Source: Bolinopsis microptera (lineage: Eukaryota > Ctenophora > Tentaculata > Lobata > Bolinopsidae). Taken from it: 64,000 nt of DNA. The position numbers and the translations under genes are program-made. The stretch lies in NCBI RefSeq assembly GCF_026151205.1, contig NC_087075.1, forward strand, positions 1,233,911 to 1,297,910. The letters run 5' to 3'. Below the pieces are notes generated by a model, which saw only the letters and a program-made list of their open reading frames with translations, had not been told where the DNA came from and did not search any database. Numbering within the stretch: the first letter of the stretch is position 1; every line of letters begins with the position of its first letter. Positions 2,495 to 62,812 of this stretch are shown here, piece by piece.

Positions 2495-5400
2495 GCCCAA
2501 GAAAGGGTCCAGCAAACCCCACACCCCCAAGTCCCCGCAAGAAGACAAGACGCCTAATCCCTTGGAAACTGCCGTTATCACTGACGAAGCTCGTATTGCT
2601 GCAATGATCAAACTCAAAACAAACTTTGAGCAGCGCTTCGAGAAAATTCTGATCCCATGTTTCACGGGTATAGGAGATTGTTCCCACGATAAAACACTAG
2701 ACTACCGGCTCTATGATACAGTCTACTTACAAGTCCATCTCCCTGCAGTTAAACCAGAGCTAGTCCTTCTTTCCCAAAATGGCAGCTCCATAGTAGACTT
2801 CAGCAACGTGTGTATCGGCCAAACAAAGAAACTGGAGCTCACTCTAAAGAGTATCAGTGAGGACGAGGTCAGCTTATCAACCAGCGCATTCCCTCACGAC
2901 GGAACATTCCAGAAAGTTAACGCTACAAGAGATCTGGCCCCACTGGGATTACACCAGATGATATTAGAGTTTACCCCGCGGGCCAAGGCTAAGTACTACG
3001 AGGTGGTGGAGGTCAGAACGCAGAAGTCTACCTTGCACTTACATTTACACGGGTGTGGGGTGGAACCTAACCTGGTGGTGTCCCCGGATTCAGGTCAGTA
3101 CACGTCACAGTTACACTGTTTTAATCATTACCCACATTGTCGTAACTACATAATAAAAGTGGATCTGTGTTTCGTATAAAACATTACCTTGTGTTCAGGA
3201 ACGCTGGACCTGTGTTTCGTATAGAACATTACCTTGTGTTCAGGAACGCTGGACCTGTGTTTCGTATAGAACATTACCTTGTGTTCAGGAACGCTGGACC
3301 TGTGTTTCGTATAAAACATTACCTTGTGTTCAGGCACGCTGGACCTGTGTTTCGTATAAAACATTACCTTGTGTTCAGGAACGCTGGACCTGTGTTTCGT
3401 ATAAAACATTACCTTGTGTTCAGGAACGCTGGACCTGTGTTTCGTATAGAACATTACCTTGTGTTCAGGAACGCTGGACCTGTGTTTCGTATAGAACATT
3501 ACCTTGTGTTCAGGAACGCTGGACCTGTGTTTCGTATAAAACATTACCTTGTGTTCAGGCACGCTGGACCTGTGTTTCGTATAGAACATTACCTTGTGTT
3601 CAGGAACGCTGGACCTGTGTTTCGTATAGAACATTACCTTGTGTTCAGGAACGCTGGACCTGTGTTTCGTATAAAACATTACCTTGTGTTCAGGCACGCT
3701 GGACCTGTGTTTCGTATAAAACATTACCTTGTGTTCAGGAACGCTGGACCTGTGTTTCGTATAGAACATTACCTTGTGTTCAGGAACGCTGGACCTGTGT
3801 TTCGTATAAAACATTACCTTGTGTTCAGGAACGCTGGACCTGTGTTTCGTATAGAACATTACCTTGTGTTCAGGAACGCTGGACCTGTGTTTCGTATAGA
3901 ACATTACCTTGTGTTCAGGAACGCTGGACCTGTGTTTCGTATAGAACATTACCTTGTGTTCAGGAACGCTGGACCTGTGTTTCGTATAAAACATTACCTT
4001 GTGTTCAGGCACGCTGGACCTGTGTTTCGTATAAAACATTACCTTGTGTTCAGGAACGCTGGACCTGTGTTTCGTATAGAACATTACCTTGTGTTCAGGA
4101 ACGCTGGACCTGTGTTTCGTATAGAACATTACCTTGTGTTCAGGAACGCTGGACCTGTGTTTCGTATAGAACATTACCTTGTGTTCAGGAACGCTGGACC
4201 TGTGTTTCGTATAAAACATTACCTTGTGTTCAGGAACGCTGGACCTGTGTTTCGTATAAAACATTACCTTGTGTTCAGGCACGCTGGACCTGGGTCACGT
4301 GATGGTGGGCGAGATACTGCACGGAACATTTACTCTCAAGAACAACTCCGAAATAGATCTGCAGTACGGTATCTCCATGCTCAGCGAGAAGTCGGAAGTG
4401 GTCCAAGCTTTTAGTGGCCCCAGCCAAATTGGTACTTTAAATCTTGAACCTCTGTCATTTTACCTTTATAATCCAGATTTACCTTGCTGGCATAATTGTG
4501 AATTGTAAACGTATATCTTTCTACCCAATGACATTTCCGAGTGTCTGAATATAGTACTCTAGTTATAGTAGGATATATAGTATAGTACTCTAGTTATAGT
4601 AGGATATATAGTATAGTACTCTAGTTATAGTAGGATATATAGTATAGTACTCTAGTTATAGTAGGATATATAGTATAGTACTCTAGTTATAGTAGGATAT
4701 ATAGTATAGTACTCTAGTTATAGTAGGATATATAGTATAGTACTCTAGTTATAGTAGGATATATAGTATAGTACTCTAGTTATAGTAGGATATATAGTAT
4801 AGTACTCTAGTTATAGTAGGATATATAGTATAGTACTCTAGTTATAGTAGGATATATAGTATAGTACTCTAGTTATAGTAGGATATATAGTATAGTACTC
4901 TAGTTATAGTAGGATATATAGTATAGTACTCTAGTTATAGTAGGATATATAGTATAGTACTCTAGTTATAGTAGGATATATAGTATAGTACTCTAGTTAT
5001 AGTAGGATATATAGTATAGTACTCTAGTTATAGTAGGATATATAGTATAGTACTCTAGTTATAGTAGGATATATAGTATAGTACTCTAGTTATAGTAGGA
5101 TATATAGTATAGTACTCTAGTTATAGTAGGATATATAGTATAGTACTCTAGTTATAGTAGGATATATAGTATAGTACTCTAGTTATAGTAGGATATATAG
5201 TATAGTACTCTAGTTATAGTAGGATATATAGTACTCTAGTTATAGTAGGATATATAGTATAGTACTCTAGTTATAGTAGTATAATAAATATAGTACTCTA
5301 GTTATAGTAGTTATAGTAGGATATATAGTATAGTACTCTAGTTATAGTAGTTATAGTAGGATATATAGTATAGTACTCTAGTTATAGTAGTTATAGTAGG

Positions 5401-8400
5401 ATATATAGTATAGTACTCTAGTTATAGTAGTTATAGTAGGATATATAGTATAGTAGGGTTCCTGCTAATTTATCACAACATACCTACATGTTGAGATGAT
5501 AACTGTAGTATATATAGTACTCACAACAGGGAACAGTAACAAGTCGGGCATATTACCGTTCCAGTGCACCCCACACAGCGGTAATATACCACTATATCAC
5601 AACAGGGAACAGTAACAAGTCGGGCATATTGCCGTTCCAGTGCACCCCACACAGCGGTAATATACCACTATATCACAACAGGGAACAGTAACAAGTCGGG
5701 CATATTACCGTTCCAGTGCACCCCACACAGCGGTAATATACCACTATATCACAACAGGGAACAGTAACAAGTCGGGCATATTGCCGTTCCAGTGCACCCC
5801 ACACAGCGGTAATATACCACTATATCACAACAGGGAACAGTAACAAGTCGGGCATATTGCCGTTCCAGTGCACCCCACACAGCGGTAATATACCACTATA
5901 TCACAACAGGGAACAGTAACAAGTCGGGCATATTACCGTTCCAGTGCACCCCACACAGCGGTAATATACCACTATATCACAACAGGGAACAGTAACAAGT
6001 CGGGTATATTACCGTTCCAGTGCACCCCACACAGCGGTAATATACCACTATATCACAACAGGGAACAGTAACAAGTCGGGAATATTGCCGTTCCAGTGCA
6101 CCCCACACAGCGGTAATATACCACTATATCACAACAGGGAACAGTAACAAGTCGGGCATATTACCGTTCCAGTGCACCCCACACAGCGGTAATATACCAC
6201 TATATCACAACAGGGAACAGCAACAAGTCGGGCATATTACCGTTCCAGTGCACCCCACACAGCGGTAATATACCACTATATCACAACAGGGAACAGTAAC
6301 AAGTCGGGCATATTACCGTTCCAGTGCACCCCACACAGCGGTAATATACCACTATATCACAACAGGGAACAGCAACAAGTCGGGCATATTACCGTTCCAG
6401 TGCACCCCACACAGCGGTAATATACCACTATATCACAACAGGGAACAGTAACAAGTCGGGCATATTACCGTTCCAGTGCACCCCACACAGCGGTAATATA
6501 CCACTATATCACAACAGGGAACAGCAACAAGTCGGGCATATTGCCGTTCCAGTGCACCCCACACAGCGGTAATATACCACTATATCACAACAGGGAACAG
6601 TAACAAGTCGGGCATATTGCCGTTCCAGTGCACCCCACACAGCGGTAATATACCACTATATCACAACAGGGAACAGTAACAAGTCGGGCATATTACCGTT
6701 CCAGTGCACCCCACACAGCGGTAATATACCACTATATCACAACAGGGAACAGTAACAAGTCGGGCATATTACCGTTCCAGTGCACCCCACACAGCGGTAA
6801 TATACCACTATATCACAACAGGGAACAGTAACAAGTCGGGCATATTGCCGTTCCAGTGCACCCCACACAGCGGTAATATACCACTATATCACAACAGGGA
6901 ACAGTAACAAGTCGGGCATATTACCGTTCCAGTGCACCCCACACAGCGGTAATATACCACTATATCACAACAGGGAACAGTAACAAGTCGGGCATATTAC
7001 CGTTCCAGTGCACCCCACACAGCGGTAATATACCACTATATCACAACAGGGAACAGTAACAAGTCGGGCATATTACCGTTCCAGTGCACCCCACACAGCG
7101 GTAATATACCACTATATCACAACAGGGAACAGTAACAAGTCGGGCATATTACCGTTCCAGTGCACCCCACACAGCGGTAATATACCACTATATCACAACA
7201 GGGAACAGTAACAAGTCGGGCATATTACCGTTCCAGTGCACCCCACACAGCGGTAATATACCACTATATCACAACAGGGAACAGTAACAAGTCGGGCATA
7301 TTACCGTTCCAGTGCACCCCACACAGCGGTAATATACCACTATATCACAACAGGGAACAGTAACAAGTCGGGCATATTACCGTTCCAGTGCACCCCACAC
7401 AGCGGTAATATACCACTATATCACAACAGGGAACAGTAACAAGTCGGGCATATTACCGTTCCAGTGCACCCCACACAGCGGTAATATACCACTATATCAC
7501 AACAGGGAACAGTAACAAGTCGGGCATATTACCGTTCCAGTGCACCCCACACAGCGGTAATATACCACTATATCACAACAGGGAACAGTAACAAGTCGGG
7601 TATATTACCGTTCCAGTGCACCCCACACAGCGGTAATATACCACTATATCACAACAGGGAACAGTAACAAGTCGGGTATATTACCGTTCCAGTGCACCCC
7701 ACACAGCGGTAATATACCACTATATCACAACAGGGAACAGTAACAAGTCGGGCATATTACCGTTCCAGTGCACCCCACACAGCGGTAATATACCACTATA
7801 TCACAACAGGGAACAGTAACAAGTCGGGAATATTACCGTTCCAGTGCACCCCACACAGCGGTAATATACCACTATATCACAACAGGGAACAGTAACAAGT
7901 CGGGCATATTACCGTTCCAGTGCACCCCACACAGCGGTAATATACCACTATATCACAACAGGGAACAGTAACAAGTCGGGCATATTACCGTTCCAGTGCA
8001 CCCCACACAGCGGTAATATACCACTATATCACAACAGGGAACAGTAACAAGTCGGGCATATTACCGTTCCAGTGCACCCCACACAGCGGTAATATACCAC
8101 TATATCACAACAGGGAACAGTAACAAGTCGGGCATATTACCGTTCCAGTGCACCCCACACAGCGGTAATATACCACTATATCACAACAGGGAACAGCAAC
8201 AAGTCGGGCATATTACCGTTCCAGTGCACCCCACACAGCGGTAATATACCACTATATCACAACAGGGAACAGTAACAAGTCGGGCATATTACCGTTCCAG
8301 TGCACCCCACACAGCGGTAATATACCACTATATCACAACAGGGAACAGTAACAAGTCGGGCATATTACCGTTCCAGTGCACCCCACACAGCGGTAATATA

Positions 8401-11400
8401 CCACTATATCACAACAGGGAACAGTAACAAGTCGGGCATATTACCGTTCCAGTGCACCCCACACAGCGGTAATATACCACTATATCACAACAGGGAACAG
8501 TAACAAGTCGGGTATATTACCGTTCCAGTGCACCCCACACAGCGGTAATATACCACTATATCACAACAGGGAACAGTAACAAGTCGGGTATATTACCGTT
8601 CCAGTGCACCCCACACAGCGGTAATATACCACTATATCACAACAGGGAACAGTAACAAGTCGGGTATATTACCGTTCCAGTGCACCCCACACAGCGGTAA
8701 TATACCACTATATCACAACAGGGAACAGTAACAAGTCGGGCATATTACCGTTCCAGTGCACCCCACACAGCGGTAATATACCACTATATCACAACAGGGA
8801 ACAGTAACAAGTCGGGCATATTACCGTTCCAGTGCACCCCACACAGCGGTAATATACCACTATATCACAACAGGGAACAGTAACAAGTCGGGCATATTAC
8901 CGTTCCAGTGCACCCCACACAGCGGTAATATACCACTATATCACAACAGGGAACAGTAACAAGTCGGGCATATTACCGTTCCAGTGCACCCCACACAGCG
9001 GTAATATACCACTATATCACAACAGGGAACAGTAACAAGTCGGGCATATTACCGTTCCAGTGCACCCCACACAGCGGTAATATACCACTATATCACAACA
9101 GGGAACAGTAACAAGTCGGGTATATTACCGTTCCAGTGCACCCCACACAGCGGTAATATACCACTATATCACAACAGGGAACAGTAACAAGTCGGGCATA
9201 TTACCGTTCCAGTGCACCCCACACAGCGGTAATATACCACTATATCACAACAGGGAACAGTAACAAGTCGGGTATATTACCGTTCCAGTGCACCCCACAC
9301 AGCGGTAATATACCACTATATCACAACAGGGAACAGTAACAAGTCGGGCATATTACCGTTCCAGTGCACCCCACACAGCGGTAATATACCACTATATCAC
9401 AACAGGGAACAGTAACAAGTCGGGTATATTACCGTTCCAGTGCACCCCACACAGCGGTAATATACCACTATATCACAACAGGGAACAGTAACAAGTCGGG
9501 CATATTACCGTTCCAGTGCACCCCACACAGCGGTAATATACCACTATATCACAACAGGGAACAGTAACAAGTCGGGCATATTACCGTTCCAGTGCACCCC
9601 ACACAGCGGTAATATACCACTATATCACAACAGGGAACAGTAACAAGTCGGGCATATTACCGTTCCAGTGCACCCCACACAGCGGTAATATACCACTATA
9701 TCACAACAGGGAACAGTAACAAGTCGGGTATATTACCGTTCCAGTGCACCCCACACAGCGGTAATATACCACTATATCACAACAGGGAACAGTAACAAGT
9801 CGGGCATATTACCGTTCCAGTGCACCCCACACAGCGGTAATATACCACTATATCACAACAGGGAACAGTAACAAGTCGGGTATATTACCGTTCCAGTGCA
9901 CCCCACACAGCGGTAATATACCACTATATCACAACAGGGAACAGTAACAAGTCGGGTATATTACCGTTCCAGTGCACCCCACACAGCGGTAATATACCAC
10001 TATATCACAACAGGGAACAGTAACAAGTCGGGTATATTACCGTTCCAGTGCACCCCACACAGCGGTAATATACCACTATATCACAACAGGGAACAGTAAC
10101 AAGTCGGGTATATTACCGTTCCAGTGCACCCCACACAGCGGTAATATACCACTATATCACAACAGGGAACAGTAACAAGTCGGGTATATTACCGTTCCAG
10201 TGCACCCCACACAGCGGTAATATACCACTATATCACAACAGGGAACAGTAACAAGTCGGGTATATTACCGTTCCAGTGCACCCCACACAGCGGTAATATA
10301 CCACTATATCACAACAGGGAACAGTAACAAGTCGGGCATATTACCGTTCCAGTGCACCCCACACAGCGGTAATATACCACTATATCACAACAGGGAACAG
10401 TAACAAGTCGGGTATATTACCGTTCCAGTGCACCCCACACAGCGGTAATATACCACTATATCACAACAGGGAACAGTAACAAGTCGGGCATATTGCCGTT
10501 CCAGTGCACCCCACACAGTGGTAATATACCACTATATCACAACAGGGAACAGTAACAAGTCGGGCATATTACCGTTCCAGTGCACCCCACACAGCGGTAA
10601 TATACCACTATATCACAACAGGGAACAGTAACAAGTCGGGCATATTACCGTTCCAGTGCACCCCACACAGCGGTAATATACCACTATATCACAACAGGGA
10701 ACAGTAACAAGTCGGGTATATTACCGTTCCAGTGCACCCCACACAGCGGTAATATACCACTATATCACAACAGGGAACAGTAACAAGTCGGGTATATTAC
10801 CGTTCCAGTGCACCCCACACAGCGGTAATATACCACTATATCACAACAGGGAACAGTAACAAGTCGGGTATATTACCGTTCCAGTGCACCCCACACAGCG
10901 GTAATATACCACTATATCACAACAGGGAACAGTAACAAGTCGGGTATATTACCGTTCCAGTGCACCCCACACAGCGGTAATATACCACTATATCACAACA
11001 GGGAACAGTAACAAGTCGGGTATATTACCGTTCCAGTGCACCCCACACAGCGGTAATATACCACTATATCACAACAGGGAACAGTAACAAGTCGGGCATA
11101 TTACCGTTCCAGTGCACCCCACACAGCGGTAATATACCACTATATCACAACAGGGAACAGTAACAAGTCGGGCATATTACCGTTCCAGTGCACCCCACAC
11201 AGCGGTAATATACCACTATATCACAACAGGGAACAGTAACAAGTCGGGCATATTACCGTTCCAGTGCACCCCACACAGCGGTAATATACCACTATATCAC
11301 AACAGGGAACAGTAACAAGTCGGGTATATTACCGTTCCAGTGCACCCCACACAGCGGTAATATACCACTATATCACAACAGGGAACAGTAACAAGTCGGG

Positions 11401-14400
11401 TATATTACCGTTCCAGTGCACCCCACACAGCGGTAATATACCACTATATCACAACAGGGAACAGTAACAAGTCGGGTATATTACCGTTCCAGTGCACCCC
11501 ACACAGCGGTAATATACCACTATATCACAACAGGGAACAGTAACAAGTCGGGTATATTACCGTTCCAGTGCACCCCACACAGCGGTAATATACCACTATA
11601 TCACAACAGGGAACAGTAACAAGTCGGGTATATTACCGTTCCAGTGCACCCCACACAGCGGTAATATACCACTATATCACAACAGGGAACAGTAACAAGT
11701 CGGGTATATTACCGTTCCAGTGCACCCCACACAGCGGTAATATACCACTATATCACAACAGGGAACAGTAACAAGTCGGGTATATTACCGTTCCAGTGCA
11801 CCCCACACAGCGGTAATATACCACTATATCACAACAGGGAACAGTAACAAGTCGGGCATATTACCGTTCCAGTGCACCCCACACAGCGGTAATATACCAC
11901 TATATCACAACAGGGAACAGCAACAAGTCGGGTATATTACCGTTCCAGTGCACCCCACACAGCGGTAATATACCACTATATCACAACAGGGAACAGTAAC
12001 AAGTCGGGTATATTACCGTTCCAGTGCACCCCACACAGCGGTAATATACCACTATATCACAACAGGGAACAGTAACAAGTCGGGTATATTACCGTTCCAG
12101 TGCACCCCACACAGCGGTAATATACCACTATATCACAACAGGGAACAGTAACAAGTCGGGTATATTACCGTTCCAGTGCACCCCACACAGCGGTAATATA
12201 CCACTATATCACAACAGGGAACAGTAACAAGTCGGGTATATTACCGTTCCAGTGCACCCCACACAGCGGTAATATACCACTATATCACAACAGGGAACAG
12301 TAACAAGTCGGGTATATTACCGTTCCAGTGCACCCCACACAGCGGTAATATACCACTATATCACAACAGGGAACAGTAACAAGTCGGGTATATTACCGTT
12401 CCAGTGCACCCCACACAGCGGTAATATACCACTATATCACAACAGGGAACAGTAACAAGTCGGGTATATTACCGTTCCAGTGCACCCCACACAGCGGTAA
12501 TATACCACTATATCACAACAGGGAACAGTAACAAGTCGGGTATATTACCGTTCCAGTGCACCCCACACAGCGGTAATATACCACTATATCACAACAGGGA
12601 ACAGTAACAAGTCGGGCATATTACCGTTCCAGTGCACCCCACACAGCGGTAATATACCACTATATCACAACAGGGAACAGCAACAAGTCGGGCATATTAC
12701 CGTTCCAGTGCACCCCACACAGCGGTAATATACCACTATATATCACAACAGGGAACAGTAACAAGTCGGGCATATTACCGTTCCAGTGCACCCCACACAG
12801 CGGTAATATACCACTATATCACAACAGGGAACAGTAACAAGTCGGGTATATTACCGTTCCAGTGCACCCCACACAGCGGTAATATACCACTATATCACAA
12901 CAGGGAACAGTAACAAGTCGGGTATATTACCGTTCCAGTGCACCCCACACAGCGGTAATATACCACTATATCACAACAGGGAACAGTAACAAGTCGGGTA
13001 TATTACCGTTCCAGTGCACCCCACACAGCGGTAATATACCACTATATCACAACAGGGAACAGTAACAAGTCGGGTATATTACCGTTCCAGTGCACCCCAC
13101 ACAGCGGTAATATACCACTATATCACAACAGGGAACAGTAACAAGTCGGGTATATTACCGTTCCAGTGCACCCCACACAGCGGTAATATACCACTATATC
13201 ACAACAGGGAACAGTAACAAGTCGGGTATATTACCGTTCCAGTGCACCCCACACAGCGGTAATATACCACGCGGTGAGACGCAGGAGGTCACTGTAAAGT
13301 TTAATCCTGATCACAAGGACTCCTACAGGGACGTTGTTATTGTTAACCTCCTTAATCAGGTACACTCAGCTAATCTCTTTCTGAACATTCCACTATTGTA
13401 CTGCATTTGTGAGGTATACCTGACTATTTATTGTAATATCTTTTCCCTATTTATAAAGTATAATCTTTACAACCATTAAATTATAATATTTTCCAGCCCC
13501 AAGAGACGAGAATAGAAGTAAAGGGACAGTCCTGGACCGGGTCAATGTTCGTGTTGGGAGCACGTGATCCAGAACCATCTGTCACATTACACACACGTTA
13601 GTTTTTAGCAGAACCCTCTGTCACATTACACACACGTTAGTTTTTAGCAGAACCCTCTGTCACATTACACACACGTTAGTTTTTAGCAGGACCCTCTGTC
13701 ACATTACACACACGTTAGTTTTTAGCAGGATCCTCTGTCACATTACACACACGTTAGTTTTTAGCAGGACCCTCTGTCACATTACACACACGTTAGTTTT
13801 TAGCAGGATCCTCTGTCACATTACACACACGTTAGTTTTTAGCAGAACCCTCTGTCACATTACACACACGTTAGTTTTTAGCAGGACCCTCTGTCACATT
13901 ACACACACGTTAGTTTTTAGGGCATTCATTAAGGATTTTAGAGGTTGTCTGTTCAACTTTGGTTTAAATTAGTATCCTGAGTTCAAAAGCTGTCGTAAAT
14001 AAACTAAAATGTAGTTTATGAATATAGATATGAAGCGGCTTTTCACTTTATTAATTTGGAAGATAAACATAGTTAGTTATTCAGTTAAATTCATGAAATT
14101 TAAAGATTTAGAAATCACTTTATCAATTTGTAATTTGATCAGTTAACTCCATGAAATTTAAAAACATTTTTCCTTCTTCCAGTGGTACCACATATAGAAG
14201 ATCTGGCAGCCGAACCTGAACCAGAAGAGTTTAGAGGGGAGTTGTGGGTAGTCTTTATCTGCTCTCTGAGTGCTCCTAAACAGGTACCTTACCTTTATCT
14301 GCTCTCTGAGTGCTCCTAAACAGGTACCTTACCTTTATCTGCTCTCTGAGTGCTCCTAAACAGGTACCTTACCTTTATCTGCTCTCTGAGTGCTCCTAAA

Positions 14401-15376
14401 CAGGTACCTTACTTTTATCTGCTCTCTGAGTGCTCCTAAACAGGTACCTTACCTTTATCTGCTCTCTGAGTGCTCCTAAACAGGTACCTTACCTTTATCT
14501 GCTCTCTGAGTGCTCCTAAACAGGTACCTTACCTTTATCTGCTCTCTGAGTGCTCCTAAACAGGTACCTTACCTTTATCTGCTCTCTGAGTGCTCCTAAA
14601 CAGGTACCTTTCTGCAATTTCTTACTGGTACAGTGCAAACGAGATGTTGATAAGATTCCTGTCCATGAAGCTAGAAAATGTGGTTTTAACAAATTGTAAT
14701 AATCAATTGTTCAGTAATTGCTATTTCCATGTTTTAGTGAATCTAACCTCCCTACCAGACGTTTAGTGAAACCGTCAGTATTGGAAACTGTCGTGGGGCT
14801 GGTGTGAAGGCTGACGCTATCAACTCTAAGGACAAGGCCCCCAAGGTACCTTAAACATTTCTAGGCCTTTTTCTGGATCATCAATGTAGTGTTTTTCGAA
14901 TATGGGTTATAAATTATTTTAAGTTAAGATTAACTGAATTCGAAATTAACTGCGATAACATTATCTATCTCAGCCGAGTGGAGACTTCGCGTTTGATCCT
15001 CTGAAGGCAGATTATGGGCCACTGGTTAAGGCTTTGGTTATCAACCCTCCAAAGGTAGTATAAACTTACTAAAAATCATTACCACAAGAAATATAGAAAC
15101 AATTTTAAATGTTTATAAACATTAAAAATTCTTTTTATAAATAAAAAGAATTGAGCAATCATTTTTTCGCAATTTCATTTACAATGTTCAATTAACATTT
15201 TACTTCGACAGGGCTCCGTAGAATCGTGCACAAATGTTCCGGTGACGTTTCAATTCAGTCCTCCTAAGGAGTTGGCTGAAGTTGGTTCAAGACTTCAGTT
15301 CAATACCATGTTAACACTCAAAGGAGAGACAATCGAGCAGTTTAGGGTTAACTTTGTGGCAGAAATTGTCAAATGA
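2495..15376 (+). CDS. CFAP74: ASH/MSP-domain ciliary protein, CFAP74-like, 3' eight exons (5' partial)
   Basis: Exons 2495-3093, 4279-4431, 13208-13359, 13497-13596, 14183-14283, 14759-14845, 14974-15054 and 15212-15376 (TGA). Phases (1,1,0,1,0,0,0) agree at every junction. The first exon enters from the gap with a K/S/P-rich linker, then an ASH-type beta-sandwich (VDFSNVCIGQTKKLELTLKS) ending in LHLHLHGCGVEP. A second begins LDLGHVMVGEILHGTFTLKN and continues GETQEVTVKFNPDH. Further ones follow (TFSETVSIGN; VPVTFQFSPPKE), and the protein ends LTLKGETIEQFRVNF. The order of motifs matches my memory of CFAP74, a component of the central-pair C1d projection of motile cilia; HYDIN, CFAP65 or DLEC1-type proteins share the fold. 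The visible part encodes about 479 residues. Introns carry 45-, 31-, 76-, 39- and 40-bp arrays, four of them junction-spanning. Family is firm; the exact orthologue is inference. Confidence 0.75.
3162..4291 (+). repeat. 45-bp array (~25 copies) spanning a splice acceptor
   Basis: Each 45-bp unit reads through the intron end (CCTTGTGTTCAG) into the first 13 bases of the exon at 4279 (GCACGCTGGACCT). The last copy is the real junction. Internal copies mostly carry GAACGCTGG instead of GCACGCTGG and vary between GTATAGAAC and GTATAAAAC. The unit is a multiple of 3 without stops, so both strands show long spurious open frames. Confidence 0.95.
4547..5455. repeat. 31-bp AT-rich array (~29 copies)
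   Basis: Unit about 31 bp (ATAGTACTCTAGTTATAGTA then GGATATATAGT). It lies inside the CFAP74-like intron and does not touch an exon. The 3' end (from about 5225) is scrambled, with units lengthened by an extra GTTATAGTA. Confidence 0.95.
5521..13270 (+). repeat. 76-bp array (~102 copies, 7.7 kb) spanning a splice acceptor
   Basis: Period is exactly 76 bp (5521 to 5597 and onward). Each unit contains an acceptor (CACTATATCACAACAG) followed by about 60 bases of the exon that starts at 13208 (GGAACAGTAACAAGTCGGG...). The last copy is the working exon start and runs into unique coding sequence at about 13271. Variants: GGGC/GGGT before ATATT (synonymous Gly), ATTACC/ATTGCC, AGTAAC/AGCAAC. GGGT, the state of the real exon, is concentrated in the 3' third. 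One copy near 12735 has a 2-base insertion. Confidence 0.97.
13570..13920 (+). repeat. 39-bp array (9 copies) spanning a splice donor
   Basis: Unit contains the exon end (CTGTCACATTACACACAC) plus donor GTTAGT and TTTTAGCAG. The first copy is the real exon 13497-13596 with its donor at 13597. The other eight lie in the intron. Confidence 0.92.
13921..14182. other. AT-rich intron sequence
   Basis: Intron between two CFAP74-like exons, AT-rich, with a short internal near-repeat (TTCATGAAATTTAAAGATTT / CCATGAAATTTAAAAACATT) before the acceptor at 14182. Nothing else recognised. Confidence 0.6.
14246..14611 (+). repeat. 40-bp array (9 copies) spanning a splice donor
   Basis: Unit contains the end of exon 14183-14283 (CTCTGAGTGCTCCTAAACAG) and its donor GTACCT. 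The exon copy is the first; eight more follow in the intron, each with an intact CAG/GTACCT. Confidence 0.93.
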
Positions 15377-15735
15377 TAGTCCTTGATTTGGTTTAAGAAT
15401 ATAATGCTTTGGACCATGATAAAATTTTGATTGTAAATACAATGTTTAACTGTAAATAATTTTAGATTTCCGAGACAGATCAAATGATTTTCTTTCTCAT
15501 CGTTTTTCTGGGACGTAAAATGTACAGTTTTGCTTGAAATTGTAACGCGCGTAATACTTATTGTATAGATTTGGGCGCCGTTTCTATGACAACAACGCGC
15601 ACACATTCTTCATTTGGATCAAAAGCAAGGCCGATGTCAAACAGTTGCAAAAGCAGACTCGCCTTGGACGATCGCCAATTTGCATCTTTCTTAACTTCCT
15701 CCCAACATTAGAGGTATGGATAAACGAAATGAACA
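15377..15735 (+). other. short intergenic region between the CFAP74-like and dynein genes
   Basis: Only 359 bp separate the TGA of the upstream gene from the proposed dynein ATG. A pyrimidine-rich acceptor (TTCTTAACTTCCTCCCAACA then TTAG, ending 15711) lies 24 nt before the ATG. An open frame across 15561-15770 is not convincing as coding, because the dynein frame has stops immediately upstream of 15736. No clear AATAAA is seen for the upstream gene. Confidence 0.55.
15712..15735 (+). promoter_or_regulatory. possible dynein 5' leader after a splice acceptor
   Basis: A pyrimidine-rich tract ending in TTAG at 15711 leaves a 24-nt leader (AGGTATGGATAAACGAAATG + AACA) before the ATG at 15736. 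In the frame of the ATG there are stops in this leader, so translation should begin at 15736. The acceptor could serve a 5'UTR intron or spliced-leader addition. Confidence 0.4.
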
Positions 15736-48100: not shown

Positions 48101-51100
48101 GGGCAGTGGTCCATGTAGTTAGCAAGTTTAGTATCACAGGCGATCTTCTGGTTTGCTTCTCCGATCTGCATCCTTGAGGTGAGGATCATCTTGACAACTT
48201 TGGACTTGATAGGTTCAAGAGGACCGGTTTCCACCTTTTCTGGGTTCGCGAGAGTCATGATTTCGACCTTGTTATCTAAATGAATATAAATATTAGTTAT
48301 TAATGTAACAGTAATAGTATTTTAGCTGTTATAATATAGCATACTGAGTATTAAATCGTGGAGAAAACAATTTTGTTCTTTAATTTTATTTCGCATATCA
48401 ATCGAAGTAGTGAAAACAAAAATTTCTTAGTACATATAAATATTATCTTCAAGGATTAATCATAATATATACAGTAAACATATTAACTATAGACTAAATT
48501 ACAAAGGAAAAGTTTGAATATAAACAATGTAACTTAATAATCATATGTGCGTAAACAGTTAAGTTAGTTTATGCGATATCTCCTTGTCCCATCTCTTCAG
48601 GGAGGAGGTCCATGATGTGGGGTGTAGGAGGTCGGATGTACTCTCCGCTCTTAGATTCGTTGGTTTTGAACCATCTTCGGATAGGGCTGGGATAATGTAA
48701 GAACTTATCCATGAAGACACTCAGCTTGGCATGTTTCTCCAAAGCTCCGGGGCAGAATACGTTGATGTCGTAGAGACTAGCGTAGAGAAGGTAGTCAGCA
48801 TGGACTGGTAGAGTGTCTCCCATGATGAAGGGTCCGGTGATGAGCTCTTCAAGGGCTGCAGCTTTGGGTGCAAACTTGGTCAAGAATCTGGTCCTGGCGT
48901 ATTCAACATCAAAGTCGTTACACTCGGTGCTGTTGGGAGCAAAACAGATCTTGTTGATGAGGTAGACCATGGTGTTCATGATGGAGAAAAGGATCTTCTC
49001 AATCTCCTCACACTTCTTGAACTGTTCAGGATCGTCAGGGATGAGGAACCATGCAGCTCCAATAGCTCGAACTACTGCGATGGATTCAGTCATCTTGTTG
49101 TCGAGATCCATCCAGTTCTTAGAGGTGTCGTCCTTAGCTTTGAGCCATTCTGGGCAGTGGTCCATGTAGTTAGCGAGTTTAGTATCACAGGCGATCTTCT
49201 GGTTTGCTTCTCCGATCTGCATCCTTGAGGTGAGCATCATCTTGACAACTTTGGACTTGATAGGTTCAAGAGGACCGGTTTCCACCTTTTCTGGGTTCGT
49301 GAGAGTCATGATTTCGACCTTGATATCTAAATGAATATAAATATTAGTTATTAATGTAACAGTAATAGTTATAATAGTTATAATATAGCATACTGAGTAT
49401 TAAATCGTGGAGAAAACAATTTTGTTCTTTAATTTTATTTCGCATATCAATCGAAGTAGTGAAAACAAAAATTTCTTAGTACATATAAATATTATCTTCA
49501 AGGATTAATCATAATATATACAGTAAACATATTAACTATAAACTAAATTACAAAGGAAAAGTTTGGAATATAAACAATGAAACTTAATAATCATATGTGC
49601 GTAAACAATATAGTTAGTTTATGCGATATCTCCTTGTCCCATGTCTTCAGGGAGGAGGTCCATGATGTGGGGTGTAGGAGGTCGGATGTACTCTCCGCTC
49701 TTAGATTCGTTGGTTTTGAACCACCTTCGGATAGGGCTGGGATAGTGCAAGAACTTATCCATGAAGACACTCAGCTTGGCATGTTTCTCCAAAGCTCCGG
49801 GGCAGAATACGTTGATGTCGTAGAGACTAGCGTAGAGAAGGTAGTCAGCATGGACTGGTAGAGTGTCTCCCATGATGAAGGGTCCGGTGATGAGCTCTTC
49901 AAGGGCTGCAGCTTTGGGTGCAAACTTGGTCAAGAATCTGGTCCTGGCGTATTCAACATCAAAGTCGTTACACTCGGTGCTGTTGGGAGCAAAACAGATC
50001 TTGTTGATGAGGTAGACCATGGTGTTCATGATGGAGAAAAGGATCTTCTCAATCTCCTCACACTTCTTGAACTGTTCAGGATCGTCAGGGATGAGGAACC
50101 ATGCAGCTCCAATAGCTCGAACTACTGCGATGGATTCAGTCATCTTGTTGTCGAGATCCATCCAGTTCTTAGAGGTGTCGTCCTTAGCTTTGAGCCATTC
50201 TGGGCAGTGGTCCATGTAGTTAGCGAGCTTAGTATCACAGGCGATCTTCTGGTTTGCTTCTCCAATCTGCATCCTTGAGGTGAGCATCATCTTGACAACT
50301 TTGGACTTGATGGGTTCAAGAGGACCGGTTTCCACCTTTTCTGGGTTCGTGAGAGTCATGATTTCGACTTTGCTACCTTGAAAAGTTAGATAAGTTAAAA
50401 TTGAAAAAAATATCAATTTCGAGCAGGAAAATTAAATTATGATTCGTTTTCAAACCTGGTTATCAAGGATATGAGTCACAATCAAAAGTTATATCAAGAA
50501 ACGTAAAAAACAACAATTAAAAAAAACAACTAAGTTTTACTTTAGCCAAAGAGCTATTGTATTGAAGCACTATGGAAAGGATAATATGAATAACTGAGGG
50601 CTCTTAATGGCTTTTATAGTTAAAATCTTGATTGATACAATTAATTAACGTACTTGATAACATTAGCGATATTTCACTATCGGGATTATTCTAATGAGAT
50701 TATTATTGCTTAGATTGAATCGTTAATGAATTTGTCTCTCGCAATTGTTATGGTCGTTCTCAAATGTCAGCTTATCTCAAACTCTCTTTAATGGTCCAGT
50801 GTTGTAATATATAAAGGTGTATAATGGTGTTATTATATACCCTTCCTCTTCTAATGGGCTTATAAATGAGCTTATCTCATTTAACCAATAATTGATCGAG
50901 GAATCATTCAATTAAATTGAATTTCCGTCTTGTTAAATTGAGGGGTAATATTGCATGATATTCATTACTTGCCCCTAATCTAGTGGTTTGAGAGGTAATA
51001 GTCTCTCTGTCTAAAGCTGTGAAGCAAAATGAAACGAGCTAAATCTAATCTGTTATCAATTACTCAAGCAGATAAGCTTGTAATTCTATTTACTAATACT

Positions 51101-54100
51101 ATTTACTATACGTTATTTTAGTGTCAGATATTAATGAACTAATTTAAAAAGATCTTGCTTCATTTTATCAATCCCCATTAATCCTGATTGCATAGAAATA
51201 ATAAACTTGCTTACTTGACAGCTGCGGGAGGATAATATGTAATATTTGTTTTGACACGTGACATAGACTCTGGCATTTCATCGGTCACTGCTGAAAGCTG
51301 ATTGGTTAATCGCTGTCACATGTCATGGGGCCAGGGGGTCACATGTTATATAAATGTGCCCCCTTACTGGTAGCTTCATGTATGGAAGTGTGTTTCATAA
51401 TTAATTATCCTCAATTTATTCAGCAAATTAAGTAGGAGGGTGAAGGCACGTAGTCAGGGGGGGGGGGTGCTTTACAAATGTGCCGCTTCCCACTGTACTG
51501 GTTCTCCATTTGTTTTAATGAATAACGATCGCTGGGATAGAAATAATTAGAAATAAATACAACTTGACAATTATTGTAAAAGTCAATTTAAGGTCAATAT
51601 ATCAGCATATTTTATAACTGAAAATGAATAATTCGAGAACTAAAAATATAAGTTCATAAACTCCTACATTCCAAACACAAGGAAATGTTTTACCCACCCC
51701 TCCTCTCAGGATCACCAAGTGTTGCTACAGTCGATGCTGGCTTCGCCCTACATACAGGAACTCCATGTCAGAGCTGAGACCTGGCTTGTTCTGCTACAAC
51801 AACTACACGTTATCATGCACCTCTGGCCTGTTTGCCATACCAACGTTAGTACAGTCACCAACGTTAGTCACTATTAGTCACATACCAACGTTAGTCACTA
51901 TTAGTCACATACCAACGTTAGTCACTATTAGTCACATACCAACGTTAGTTACAATTAGTCACATACCAACGTTAGTCACTATTAGTCACATACCAACGTT
52001 AGTCACTATTAGTCACATACCAACGTTAGTCACTATTAGTCACATACCAACGTTAGTCACTATTAGTCACATACCAACGTTAGTCACTATTAGTCACATA
52101 CCAACGTTAGTCACTATTAGTCACATACCAACGTTAGTCACTATTAGTCACATACCAACGTTAGTCACTATTAGTAACATACCAACGTTAGTCACTATTA
52201 GTCACATACCAACGTTAGTCACTATTAGTCACATACCAACGTTAGTCACTATTAGTCACATACCAACGTTAGTCACTATTAGTCACATACCAACGTTAGT
52301 CACTATTAGTCACATACCAACGTTAGTCACTATTAGTCACATACCAACGTTAGTCACTATTAGTCACATACCAACGTTAGTCACTATTAGTCACATACCA
52401 ACGTTAGTCACTATTAGTCACATACCAACGTTAGTCACTATCAGTCACATACCAACGTTAGTCACTATTAGTCACATACTAACGTTAGTCACTATCAGTC
52501 ACATACCAACGTTAGTCACTATTAATCACATACCAACGTTAGTTACTATTAGTCACATACCAACGTTAGTCACTATTAGTCACATACCAACGTTAGTCAC
52601 TATTAGTCGCATACCAACGTTAGTCACTATTAGTCACATACCAACGTTAGTTACTATTAGTCGCATACCAACGTTAGTCACTATTAGTCACATACCAACG
52701 TTAGTCACTATTAGTCACATACCAACGTTAGTCACTATTAGTCACATACCAACGTTAGTTACTATTAGTCACATACGAACGTTAGTTACTATTAGTAACA
52801 TACCAACGTTAGTCACTATTAGTCACATACCAACGTTAGTCACTATTAGTCACATACCAACGTTAGTCACTATTAGTCACATACCAACGTTAGTCACTAT
52901 TAGTCACATACCAACGTTAGTCACTATTAGTCACATACCAACGTTAGTCACTATTAGTCACATACCAACGTTAGTTACAATTAGTCACATACCAACGTTA
53001 GTCACTATTAGTCACATACCAACGTTAGTCACTATTAGTCACATACCAACGTTAGTCACTATTAGTCACATACCAACGTTAGTCACTATTAGTCACATAC
53101 CAACGTTAGTCACTATTAGTCACATACCAACGTTAGTTACTATTAGTAACATACCAACGTTAGTCACTATTAGTCACATACCAACGTTAGTCACTATTAG
53201 TCACATACCAACGTTAGTCACTATTAGTCACATACCAACGTTAGTCACTATTAGTCACATACCAACGTTAGTCACTATTAGTCACATACCAACGTTAGTC
53301 ACTATTAGTCACATACCAACGTTAGTCACTATTAGTCACATACCAACGTTAGTTACTATCAGTCACATACCAACGTTAGTCACTATTAGTCACATACTAA
53401 CGTTAGTCACTATTAGTCACATACCAACGTTAGTCACTATTAATCACATACCAACGTTAGTTACTATTAGTCACATACCAACGTTAGTCACTATTAGTCA
53501 CATACCAACGTTAGTCACTATTAGTCACATACCAACGTTAGTCACTATTAGTCACATACCAACGTTAGTCACTATTAGTCACATACCAACGTTAGTCACT
53601 ATTAGTCACATACCAACGTTAGTCACTATTAGTCACATACCAACGTTAGTCACTATTAGTCACATACCAACGTTAGTTACTATCAGTCACATACCAACGT
53701 TAGTCACTATTAGTCACATACTAACGTTAGTCACTATTAGTCACATACCAACGTTAGTCACTATTAATCACATACCAACGTTAGTTACTATTAGTCACAT
53801 ACCAACGTTAGTCACTATTAGTCACATACTAACGTTAGTCACTATTAGTCCCATACCAACGTTAGTCACTATTAGTCACATACCAACGTTAGTTACTATT
53901 AGTCGCATACCAACGTTAGTCACTATTAGTCACATACCAACGTTAGTCACTATTAGTCACATACCAACGTTAGTTACTATTAGTCACATACGAACGTTAG
54001 TTACTATTAGTAACATACCAACGTTAGTCACTATTAGTCACATACCAACGTTAGTCACTATTAGTCACATACCAACGTTAGTTACTATTAGTCACATACC

Positions 54101-57100
54101 AACGTTAGTCACTATTAGGGGTGGGCACCCCTATCACTATGTTACTTTTACTTTTACAGTGGCTGTACTCCCTGTATACCTTGTATTGTTTACAGTGGCT
54201 GTACTCCCTGTATACCTTGTATTGTTTACAGTGGCTGTACTCCCTGTATACCTTGTATTGTTTACAGTGGCTGTACTCCCTGTATACCTTGTATTGTTTA
54301 CAGTGGCTGTACTCCCTGTATACCTTGTATTGTTTACAGTGGCTGTACTCCCTGTAAACCTTGTATTGTTTACAGTGGCTGGACTCCCTGTATACCTTGT
54401 ATTGTTTACAGTGGCTGTACTCCCTGTATACCTTGTATTATTTACAGTGGCTGTACTCCCTGTATACCTTGTACTGTTTACAGTGGCTGTACTCCCTGTA
54501 TACCTTGTATTGTTTACAGTGGCTGTACTCCCTGTATACCTTGTATTGTTTACAGTGGCTGTACTCCCTGTATACCTTGTATTGTTTACAGTGGCTGTAC
54601 TCCCTGTATACCTTGTATTGTTTACAGTGGCTGTACTCCCTGTAAACCTTGTATTGTTTACAGTGGCTGGACTCCCTGTATACCTTGTATTGTTTACAGT
54701 GGCTGTACTCCCTGTATACCTTGTATTGTTTACAGTGGCTGTACTCCCTGTATACCTTGTATTGTTTACAGTGACTGTACTCCCTGTATACCTTGTATTG
54801 TTTACAGTGACTGTACTCCCTGTATACCTTGTATTGTTTACAGTGGCTGTACTCCCTGTATACCTTGTATTGTTTACAGTGGCTGTACTCCATGTATACC
54901 TTGTATTGTTTACAGTGGCTGTACTCCTTGTATACCTTGTATTATTTACAGTGGCTGTACTCCCTGTATACCTTGTATTGTTTACAGTGGCTGTACTCCC
55001 TGTATACCTTGTATTGTTTACAGTGGCTGTACTCCCTGTATACCTTGTATTGTTTACAGTGGCTGTACTCCCTGTATACCTTGTATTGTTTACAGTGACT
55101 GTACTCCCTGTATACCTTGTATTGTTTACAGTGGCTGTACTCCCTGTATACCTTGTATTGTTTACAGTGGCTGTACTCCCTGTATACCTTGTATTGTTTA
55201 CAGTGGCTGTACTCCCTGTATACCTTGTATTGTTTACAGTGGCTGTACTCCCTGTATACCTTGTATTGTTTACAGTGGCTGTACTCCCTGTATACCTTGT
55301 ATTGTTTACAGTGGCTGTACTCCATGTATACCTTGTATTGTTTACAGTGGCTGTACTCCCTGTATACCTTGTATTGTTTACAGTGACTGTACTCCCTGTA
55401 TACCTTGTATTGTTTACAGTGGCTGTACTCCATGTATACCTTGTATTGTTTACAGTGACTGTACTCCATGTATACCTTGTATTGTTTACAGTGGCTGTAC
55501 TCCCTGTATACCTTGTATTGTTTACAGTGGCTGTACTCCCTGTATACCTTGTATTGTTTACAGTGACTGTACTCCCTGTATACCTTGTATTGTTTACAGT
55601 GGCTGTACTCCCTGTATACCTTGTATTGTTTACAGTGGCTGTACTCCCTGTATACCTTGTATTGTTTACAGTGACTGTACTCCCTGTATACCTTGTATTG
55701 TTTACAGTGACTGTACTCCCTGTATACCTTGTATTGTTTACAGTGGCTGTACTCCCTGTATACCTTGTATTGTTTACAGTGGCTGTACTCCCTGTATACC
55801 TTGTATTGTTTACAGTGGCTGTACCTGACTGATGCCCACGTGGAAGGCAAGACAGAAGCACTGGACGAGGAGGATATACACGTGTTACTGGAGGCCGACA
55901 GAGACTTTAGGGTGAGATAACTTCTTTTTATTTATACAACAAATTATAGAAACTGGGGACACTTGACCCTAAATTGTAATTAACAGCACCTTCTCTACAG
56001 TTGTAGTAGTTATACGGAGAGTGTTCTTCAATAATGAATATCTTAGGTTCGTGCTTTTTGGTACGAAGACGTCATAAATGATATCACATAATATCATTTA
56101 AAGTTATTGGTGGATTTATTTAAAGTTATTGGTGGATTGCTAATTAACGATAATGACGTCATTAAATTAGTTTAGAATTTTGGACGAATCGCATAATTGA
56201 AATTTCTGATAACATGCCAAATCTTTCTGCTATATCTGCTAGCGAATATTATTATAATCAATTCAAATATAGTATAAAGTTTACATCTCTTTATTTCTAT
56301 AGCTAGCAAGAACTGCCTTGCTGTCAATTATAACTATTGCTTCAACATACCAAACCGGTGTTAAATGAGCAGAAAATTATAAGCATGGAGAATCTGCACA
56401 GGTATCATGGAATTATTCAAAATCCTTAAAATTGATGTCCCTCAGTCCATTTAAGATCTGTCCAGGTTCTGCTCAAGCCTCCACTGATCTATTAACCATG
56501 TGTCTATTTTTAAGCAGCAGCTGCACTGAATGATTGGTACCTTGATATCGTATGATTGTACCATAAAACTAATGAATTGCAGAAATCAGATTCTGTCAAG
56601 ATATCCGTTACTCAAACAATCGCGTTTTTAAGTTTGGTAATGTTGACTAATTTGTAGTTTGGTAACTAATTGCAATAGAACTGATACGACGTGGTGGTAT
56701 CTGTTTTAAGGCAGATATCTCTGCTACAGTTCTTACTTTCAATTCTTTACTGTTATATACACCTGAATGTTCATCCCATGACTTGAATAATGAATGAAAA
56801 CCCCCTGCCCAGCAACTACTGATAGTGACATGGGAGGACCCGCTAGTGATGTCGTTATTCGGTAAGAAGAGTCTGAGTAACGTGCGGGAACTACAGGGAG
56901 ACAAGCTGATCTTGAGGCTGGAGACCCTGCAGAGACACCAGGAGGGGCTGATGAAGCAGCTAGGGCTGGTCGTGCTCAGTGCTAGAGGTTAGTGAGGGGA
57001 GGGGCTGGTTAGTGAGGGGAGGGGCTGGTTAGTGATGGGACTGGAGACCCTGCAGAGACATCAGGAGGGGCTGATGAAGCAGCTGGGGCTGGTCGTGCTC

Positions 57101-60100
57101 AGTGCTAGAGGTAACTAGTGAGGGGAGGGGCTGGTTAGTGAGGGGAGGGGCTGGTTAGTGATGGGACTGGAGACCCTGCAGAGACATCAGGAGGGGCTGA
57201 TGAAGCAGCTGGGGCTGGTCGTGCTCAGTGCTAGAGGTAACTAGTGAGGGGAGGGGCTGGTTAGTGAGGGGAGGGGCTGGTTAGTGAGGGGACTGGAGAC
57301 CCTGCAGAGACATCAGGAGGGGCTGATGAAGCAGCTGGGGCTGGTCGTGCTCAGTGCTAGAGGTAACTAGTGAGGGGAGGGGCTGGTTAGTGAGGGGAGG
57401 GGCTGGTTAGTGATGGGACTGGAGACCCTGCAGAGACATCAGGAGGGGCTGATGAAGCAGCTGGGGCTGGTCGTGCTCAGTGCTAGAGGTAACTAGTGAG
57501 GGGAGGGGCTGGTTAGTGAGGGGAGGGGCTGGTTAGTGATGGGACTGGAGACCCTGCAGAGACATCAGGAGGGGCTGATGAAGCAGCTGGGGCTGGTCGT
57601 GCTCAGTGCTAGAGGTAACTAGTGAGGGGAGGGGCTGGTTAGTGAGGGGAGGGGCTGGTTAGTGAGGGGACTGGAGACCCTGCAGAGACATCAGGAGGGG
57701 CTGGTGAAGCAGCTGGGGCTGGTCGTGCTCAGTGCTAGAGGTAACTAGTGAGGGGAGGGGCTGGTTAGTGAGGGGAGGGGCTGGTTAGTGAGGGGACTGG
57801 AGACCCTGCAGAGACATCAGGAGGGGCTGATAAGGCAGCTGGGGCTGGTCGTGCTCAGTGCTAGAGGTAACTAGTGAGGGGAGGGGCTGGTTAGTGAGGG
57901 GAGGGGCTGGTTAGTGATGGGACTGGAGACCCTGCAGAGACATCAGGAGGGGCTGATAAGGCAGCTGGGGCTGGTCGTGCTCAGTGCTAGAGGTAACTAG
58001 TGAGGGGAGGGGCTGGTTAGTGAGGGGAGGGGCTGGTTAGTGATGGGACTGGAGACCCTGCAGAGACATCAGGAGGGGCTGATAAGGCAGCTGGGGCTGG
58101 TCGTGCTCAGTGCTAGAGGTAACTAGTGAGGGGAGGGGCTGGTTAGTGAGGGGAGGGGCTGGTTAGTGATGGGACTGGAGACCCTGCAGAGACATCAGGA
58201 GGGGCTGATGAAGCAGCTGGGGCTGGTCGTGCTCAGTGCTAGAGGTAACTAGTGAGGGGAGGGGCTGGTTAGTGAGGGGAGGGGCTGGTTAGTGATGGGA
58301 CTGGAGACCCTGCAGAGACATCAGGAGGGGCTGATAAGGCAGCTGGGGCTGGTCGTGCTCAGTGCTAGAGGTAACTAGTGAGGGGAGGGGCTGGTTAGTG
58401 AGGGGAGGGGCTGGTTAGTGAGGGGACTGGAGACCCTGCAGAGACATCAGGAGGGGCTGATGAAGCAGCTGGGGCTGGTCGTGCTCAGTGCTAGAGGTAA
58501 CTAGTGAGGGGAGGGGCTGGTTAGTGAGGGGAGGGGCTGGTTAGTGAGGGGAGGGGCTGGTTAGTGATGGGACTGGAGACCCTGCAGAGACATCAGGAGG
58601 GGCTGGTGAAGCAGCTGGGGCTGGTCGTGCTCAGTGCTAGAGGTAACTAGTGAGGGGAGGGGCTGGTTAGTGAGGGGAGGGGCTGGTTAGTGATGGGACT
58701 GGAGACCCTGCAGAGACATCAGGAGGGGCTGATGAAGCAGCTGGGGCTGGTCGTGCTCAGTGCTAGAGGTAACTAGTGAGGGGAGGGGCTGGTTAGTGAG
58801 GGGAGGGGCTGGTTAGTGAGGGGACTGGAGACCCTGCAGAGACATCAGGAGGGGCTGATAAGGCAGCTGGGGCTGGTCGTGCTCAGTGCTAGAGGTAACT
58901 AGTGAGGGGAGGGGCTGGTTAGTGAGGGGAGGGGCTGGTTAGTGATGGGACTGGAGACCCTGCAGAGACATCAGGAGGGGCTGGTGAAGCAGCTGGGGCT
59001 GGTCGTGCTCAGTGCTAGAGGTAACTAGTGAGGGGAGGGGCTGGTTAGTGAGGGGAGGGGCTGGTTAGTGATGGGACTGGAGACCCTGCAGAGACATCAG
59101 GAGGGGCTGATGAAGCAGCTGGGGCTGGTCGTGCTCAGTGCTAGAGGTAACTAGTGAGGGGAGGGGCTGGTTAGTGAGGGGAGGGGCTGGTTAGTGATGG
59201 GACTGGAGACCCTGCAGAGACATCAGGAGGGGCTGATAAGGCAGCTGGGGCTGGTCGTGCTCAGTGCTAGAGGTAACTAGTGAGGGGAGGGGCTGGTTAG
59301 TGAGGGGAGGGGCTGGTTAGTGATGGGACTGGAGACCCTGCAGAGACATCAGGAGGGGCTGATAAGGCAGCTGGGGCTGGTCGTGCTCAGTGCTAGAGGT
59401 AACTAGTGAGGGGAGGGGCTGGTTAGTGAGGGGAGGGGCTGGTTAGTGATGGGACTGGAGACCCTGCAGAGACATCAGGAGGGGCTGATAAGGCAGCTGG
59501 GGCTGGTCGTGCTCAGTGCTAGAGGTAACTTCAGGCTTCATGTTGGTGACTGTTCGTAGTACTGGCTTACCTTGATCTTCAACAATAAAGGTCGTTCGTC
59601 TTTTAGAAAAAGAATTTATGTTATATGAGATCCTTAATATCATCTCGAAACCACCCTAATCTCACTAAACATTGTCTCCCCAGAGAAAGTACCACGTCTC
59701 CACTTCCTATCTGAGGACGATCTGTTATCAGTGCTGACTAACGCTGACTCTCTAGCTACTGCTAAGCACGTCACCACTGCCTGCTTCCCTCATATCCTGG
59801 ACATTACTGTGGAACCTCGTATGGACGAGAAAGATCGTTAGTTTTATTTATTTGTGTTACACACACTATTTAAATATACATAATATACTAATTTAGTATA
59901 TATTATATACTAACTTAGTATATATTATATACTAACTAATTAAGTATATATTATATTATACTAGTTAATGAAGTATATATTATATACTAATTAATTAAGT
60001 ATACATTATATACTAATTAATTAAGTATGTATTATATACTAATTAATTAAGTATATATTATATACTAATTAAGTATATATTATATACTAATTAAGTATAT

Positions 60101-62812: not shown

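Follow-up and report, generated by a model that had tools for sequence, protein, structure and literature searches.

The tandem arrays that cross exon edges in the window (the whole 64-kb stretch of Bolinopsis microptera DNA that was analysed) are most probably "mirage" minisatellites, i.e., products of random tandem duplications that were purged within exons, tolerated across exon edges and then grown into arrays. We assign this reading a probability of about 0.78. The observation in the initial annotation that arrays contain a splice junction together with exon sequence was confirmed as real, since at least 9 exonic bases and a splice site were found in the repeat at 15 of the 17 places that it listed. 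Its interpretation of these arrays was partly supported.

Edge-crossing arrays in two neighbouring genes

Both genes modelled in the window are ciliary. The first was identified as the 3' part of CFAP74 (phmmer E=8.6e-29 versus PDB 9ijj), ending near 15373, and the second, from about 16.6 kb onward, as a dynein heavy chain (phmmer E=7.1e-5 versus PDB 8glv). A 100-N run at 2395-2494 is a scaffold gap within CFAP74. The gene models were as follows.

2495..15373, + strand: CFAP74, 3' part; 8 exons and 7 introns modelled from phmmer against PDB 9ijj, phases compatible
4279, 13208, 13497, 14183, 14759, 14974 and 15212, + strand: modelled acceptors of CFAP74
16700..61975, + strand: dynein heavy chain, N-terminal part; 25 exons and 24 introns modelled from phmmer against PDB 8glv, DHC_N2 and compatible phases

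The dynein model is accompanied by two Pfam DHC_N2 matches, at 51704-51844 (E 0.003) and 59686-59817 (E 0.04), which are both below the family cut-off and both stop at donors already chosen in the model. On either side of the intron at 51845-55815, the exons encode WPVCHTN and WLYLTD, which agrees with the PDB 8glv dynein. Dynein introns d5-d6 and d12-d13 are uncertain, as further exons may hide inside them, and the other 29 window introns were treated as certain. The phases of all 31 modelled introns are mutually compatible, and the reading frames are intact despite the arrays, as had been claimed. From these frames and phases, the copy touching the exon is deduced to be the spliced copy. The 17 places are given below, with coordinates refined by Tandem Repeats Finder (TRF) or by direct comparison of copies.

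3160..4292, + strand: acceptor-crossing array; 45-bp unit x 25; 14 exonic bases
5521..13270, + strand: acceptor-crossing array; 76-bp unit x 102; 63 exonic bases
13570..13920, + strand: donor-crossing array; 39-bp unit x 9; 27 exonic bases
14253..14610, + strand: donor-crossing array; 40-bp unit x 8.9; 31 exonic bases
16622..16722, + strand: acceptor-crossing duplication; 51-bp unit x 2; 23 exonic bases
17469..17616, + strand: weak case at a donor; 23-bp AT-rich unit x 6.5; 6 AT-rich exonic bases
18393..24191, + strand: acceptor-crossing array; 68-bp unit x 85; 52 exonic bases
24305..24474, + strand: weak case; 8-bp AGGTAACC repeat whose first base is 13 bases past the donor
25760..25946, + strand: duplication of exon end and donor, 2 copies; offset 111 bases, TRF period 57 (site listed as 25774)
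30941..31165, + strand: donor-crossing array; 31-bp unit x 7.3; first copy wholly exonic
31384..31468, + strand: duplication of exon end and donor, 2 copies; offset 50 bases, missed by TRF (site listed as 31390)
32903..34361, + strand: donor-crossing array; 47-bp unit x 31; 43 exonic bases
43154..43661, + strand: donor-crossing array; 54-bp unit x 9; 51 exonic bases
51836..54118, + strand: donor-side array; 27-bp unit x 84; 9 exonic bases match the unit
54153..55824, + strand: acceptor-crossing array of intron 51845-55815; 36-bp unit x 46; 9 exonic bases
56918..59530, + strand: donor-crossing array; 126-bp unit x 20.6; 70 exonic bases
60997..61878, + strand: acceptor-crossing array; 56-bp unit x 15.8; 33 exonic bases

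The fifteen good sites are 3160, 5521, 13570, 14253, 16622, 18393, 25774, 30941, 31390, 32903, 43154, 51857, 54153, 56918 and 60997, among which 16622, 25774 and 31390 hold two copies each and are not long arrays. The two weak sites are 17469 and 24305, the latter being an 8-base repeat that has CCAGGTAAC in common with its donor. The exon at 16622 was assigned from an open frame and a good acceptor, and no upstream exon for this acceptor was found. TRF places the start of the array at 51836..54118 at 51857, which is 12 bases past the donor. Together with the 46 acceptor-side copies, the approximately 84 donor-side copies leave only about 46 other bases in intron 51845-55815.

The splice dinucleotide (GT or AG) was retained in 334 of the 334 motif copies scored in 14 arrays, where up to 3 mismatches in 20 bases were allowed and 17469 yielded no scored copy. 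Such retention is expected if there is no selection against decoys. Mean identity of the copies to the array consensus was 0.97-1.00 in 12 arrays, and the exon-touching copy differed from the consensus at 7 of 433 exonic bases, affecting 5 of the 12. These few differences would fit recent origin or continued homogenisation. If the frames are reliable, splicing would use only the copy that adjoins the exon, although as many as about 100 decoy sites, nearly identical to the real donor or acceptor, lie beside it.

Placement of arrays relative to exon edges

The initial annotation had held that chance placement could not explain the arrays. The null model applied here collapsed each array to one unit and dropped this unit randomly on the intron, as before array growth. 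Crossing was defined as a TRF array with a period of at least 10 bases and at least 4 exonic bases; arrays with periods below 10 bases were left out of the counts. For all 31 window introns, 13 of 32 intronic arrays were crossing versus 5.4 expected (P=2e-4), and for the 29 certain introns, 11 of 21 versus 5.3 (P=0.004). The 13 include the weak 17469 and omit 16622, 31390 and 51857, and the expected value for 25774 was computed with the TRF period of 57 rather than the real offset of 111. These probabilities refer to a window that was picked after the fact for its edge-crossing arrays.

Since the window had been selected in this way, an independent set of introns was assembled from genes for kinesins, myosins and dyneins, with no regard to their repeat content. 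When the 264.65-Mb genome was searched with Pfam profiles, 77 matches were obtained for the myosin head, 132 for kinesin and 85 for DHC_N2, of which 203 kinesin/myosin and 56 DHC_N2 matches lay in the stretches covered; searches with PF12780 and PF00118 were also made and lie outside the counts. Introns were taken as the gaps between adjacent matches with contiguous profile positions, and splice sites were picked by score and frame with the arrays not looked at. Intron calls with a score of 0 or less, or with more than 3 profile positions skipped or doubled, were dropped (19 of 127 for kinesin/myosin, 4 of 41 for dynein). One C11 myosin locus, part of the C9 myosin gene (two tiles) and a number of DHC_N2 loci are outside the sample, as are loci L030 and L034, apparent near-copies of L029 and L033. 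The members of each of these pairs of kinesin loci lie 30-90 kb apart and appear near-identical from shared profile scores and splice contexts, and they are apparently recent duplicates or unmerged haplotypes. Corresponding introns of these pairs are unequal in length (4,535 versus 1,009 bases and 122 versus 1,062 bases).

In the 142 introns of this sample, 8 of 68 arrays were crossing versus 6.2 expected (P=0.26; ratio 1.30, 95% interval 0.56-2.55). The claim against chance was thus not upheld, and junction targeting is not needed as a genome-wide necessity. The eight crossing arrays are distributed over 7 genes (loci L013, L014, L018, L031, L035 with two, L036 and L061) on 5 chromosomes (C2, C5, C8, C12 and C13), so edge-crossing arrays are not confined to the window. 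Once arrays were collapsed, the median intron was 170 bases in the window (29 certain introns) and 207 bases in the independent sample. In introns as short as these, chance alone will often bring a unit of 30-80 bases across an edge, without any need for machinery that seeks out junctions. By side, 8 donors and 5 acceptors were crossed in the window and 7 donors and 1 acceptor in the independent sample; the pooled 15 to 6 (P=0.078) is not claimed as a donor preference.

The position of the edge within the unit was also informative. Across 22 crossing arrays, comprising 14 from the window (16622 and 51857 included, the duplications at 25774 and 31390 excluded) and the 8 independent ones, the exonic share of the unit was uniform, with a mean of 0.55 (KS P=0.77). 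This argues against a junction-anchored process, which would fix the position of the edge. A deficit was found inside exons: only 2 arrays lay mostly within exon matches in 46,770 exonic bases versus approximately 44 expected at the intron rate, and none lay within the 3,559 bases of window exons versus 4.9 expected. This deficit may be due in part to the different base composition of exons and introns. Combined with edge crossings at or above the neutral rate, the deficit indicates that exon interiors are purged of arrays and that edges are not. The earlier suggestion that the only duplications tolerated by selection are those starting at a junction is consequently retained in its tolerance part. 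It fails for the word "only", as 60 of the 68 independent arrays cross no edge, and for the starting point, as the junction is uniformly placed in the unit.

Proposed origin of the arrays and competing readings

To explain these data, short tandem duplications are proposed to appear at essentially random positions in genes, with selection removing those inside exons. Intronic or edge-straddling duplications would survive because the copy nearest the exon keeps an intact splice site beside an intact exon. A duplicated donor would give the order exon end, intron start, exon end, intron start, and use of the first donor would leave the message unchanged, as the frames suggest; for a duplicated acceptor, the last copy would have to serve. 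Exon definition would presumably favour the copy attached to the real exon. From two copies, slippage or unequal exchange could then enlarge and homogenise the array, turning introns of approximately 100-400 bases into kilobase introns full of decoy splice sites.

A junction-biased process, by which the start of duplication or the retention of arrays is commoner at exon edges, is unlikely. Such a bias could come from breaks linked to transcription or splicing, from splice-consensus homology, or from re-seeding of the array by the constrained exon copy. It would account for the approximately 2-fold excess in the window, which was greater for arrays of at least 5 copies (11 of 16 crossing versus 4.7 expected, P=6e-4), but the independent sample gave a ratio of 1.30 with an interval that spans unity, and 2 of 17 versus 1.4 expected for arrays of at least 5 copies. 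When arrays crossing an edge or lying within 15 bases of one were counted, the independent sample had a slight excess (17 versus 11.65 expected, P=0.036) and the window a larger one (16 versus 8.7, P=3e-4), which would fit a bias; the uniform placement of the edge within the unit would not. At 30941, the exon and donor share an 8-base remainder, as calculated from the TRF output, which would suit homology at the splice consensus. For five arrays of 2-2.5 copies in the independent sample, the same arithmetic gave remainders of 0, 1, 1, 4 and 9 bases, and shared splice-consensus homology was rejected as a general driver. There is a small chance that an edge bias is real, and it would be mild, up to approximately 2.5-fold. 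In the form of a moderate preference (approximately 1.5- to 2.5-fold) of exon edges for tandem duplication or array retention, with the constrained exon copy as a permanent seed, this idea is doubtful; if it were true, splice junctions would be the growth points of introns.

It is highly improbable that the arrays or their lengths are assembly artefacts. Arrays with 88-99% match and up to 7.7 kb in length are hard to assemble, a 100-N gap is present at 2395-2494, and the data are assembly sequence. Against this, the units differ among arrays, the copies carry scattered variants, two-copy cases of 100-200 bases have the same anatomy, and the pattern recurs in 7 other genes. Birth of the introns themselves by tandem duplication of an exon segment with an AGGT-like core has the lowest probability of the readings weighed here. 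It is suggested by the array at 30941, where the first copy of the unit is wholly exonic and the donor comes from the second copy, but in every modelled window intron with an array across one of its edges, the splice site at the other end is not part of the array.

Known systems, intron length and nested sequences

The initial annotation knew of no named system that matched. A precedent does exist in the amphioxus mirages, which passages of PMC3087553 and PMC3902484 describe as minisatellite-like repeats across exon-intron boundaries, Adh3 being the original case. As described there, amphioxus mirages resemble the present arrays in that the unit holds an exon edge and a splice site, both 5' and 3' boundaries are affected, units are unrelated between places, frames are intact, and AG/GT is kept in many copies. 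Here, the unit crosses an exon-intron boundary in 13 of 32 window and 8 of 68 independent TRF arrays, both donor and acceptor boundaries are crossed in the window and in the independent sample, and splice signals are present in every scored copy. The host is a ctenophore rather than an amphioxus, the arrays reach 102 copies and 7.7 kb compared with the 3-6 repeats of the BflGb6 example in the same passages, and more than a dozen junctions are involved across two neighbouring genes. For the amphioxus mirages, these passages report splicing and instability as shown or suggested by RT-PCR and haplotypes; the present arrays are known from the assembly.

Tandem duplication that imports splice-site sequence is also the basis of the Rogers model, in which an intron is gained when coding sequence containing AGGT is duplicated in tandem; a case in potato RdRp is the subject of PMC4974935. 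There, duplication makes the intron, whereas here existing introns grow, and the duplicated segment does not supply both splice sites, the other site lying outside the array.

Introner elements are dispersed related copies that alter intron content on a large scale. The ctenophore arrays likewise change intron content on a large scale, but related copies at many introns were not found: no 10-mer was shared between any two of 12 units, which bears out the earlier claim that unit sequences are unrelated, and the 76-bp unit of 5521..13270 was matched only at its own locus. A single repeat family or an introner was rejected on this basis. Part of the 126-bp unit of 56918..59530 has relatives of 72-79% identity in C13 repeats.

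The proposal that arrays expand introns was supported within the window, where most of the long-intron length is arrays. Collapsing them reduced the 29 certain introns from 40,247 to 15,212 bases and the number of introns above 1 kb from 8 to 1. In the independent sample, introns above 1 kb fell from 25 to only 21; outside the window, therefore, arrays do not explain most long introns. The window is array-rich: arrays occupy 29.9 of its 64 kb (hand list of larger TRF rows), whereas TRF arrays account for 13% of bases across the 241 kb of loci examined for kinesins and myosins.

No earlier report of edge-crossing arrays in ctenophores was found in the open-licence literature searched. The novel elements are the phylum, how many copies the arrays contain, how many junctions are affected within two adjacent genes, and the comparison with a null model. 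The arrays place mirages in an animal phylum distant from amphioxus, at a scale that would make kilobase introns from ones of approximately 100-400 bases. They provide natural tests of splice-site choice, with a real site beside up to about 100 decoys, and a neutral account of intron growth from random duplication, purging within exons and redundancy at edges.

For another ctenophore, Hormiphora, passages of PMC8527503 report tandem repeats totalling 14 Mb (13%) and numerous genes nested in introns. Several open frames and a dispersed repeat were observed within the present dynein gene.

31468-31709: dispersed repeat; at least 42 other matches with 68-86% identity on many chromosomes (40 of 2044 candidates scored)
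36638-38070, + strand: two similar cysteine-rich open frames of 184 and 186 aa, in intron d12-d13
38494-40731, - strand: antisense open frame of 745 aa within intron d12-d13 (one of the two uncertain introns), containing four galectin stretches (PF00337, E=1.9e-52)
44208-50431, - strand: six tandem ORFs of 264-276 aa at approximately 1.06-kb spacing, antisense and nested in a dynein intron

The six tandem ORFs are weakly glutathione S-transferase-like, the first copy matching PF14497 at E=0.0019, below the cut-off, and a Pfam search with the first cysteine-rich frame gave no match. Two other dynein heavy chains, at C3:8952495-8957855 and C1:6097663-6103008, lie in single open frames of 3,357 and 3,703 aa and are nearly intron-free, in contrast to the intron-rich dynein gene of the window.
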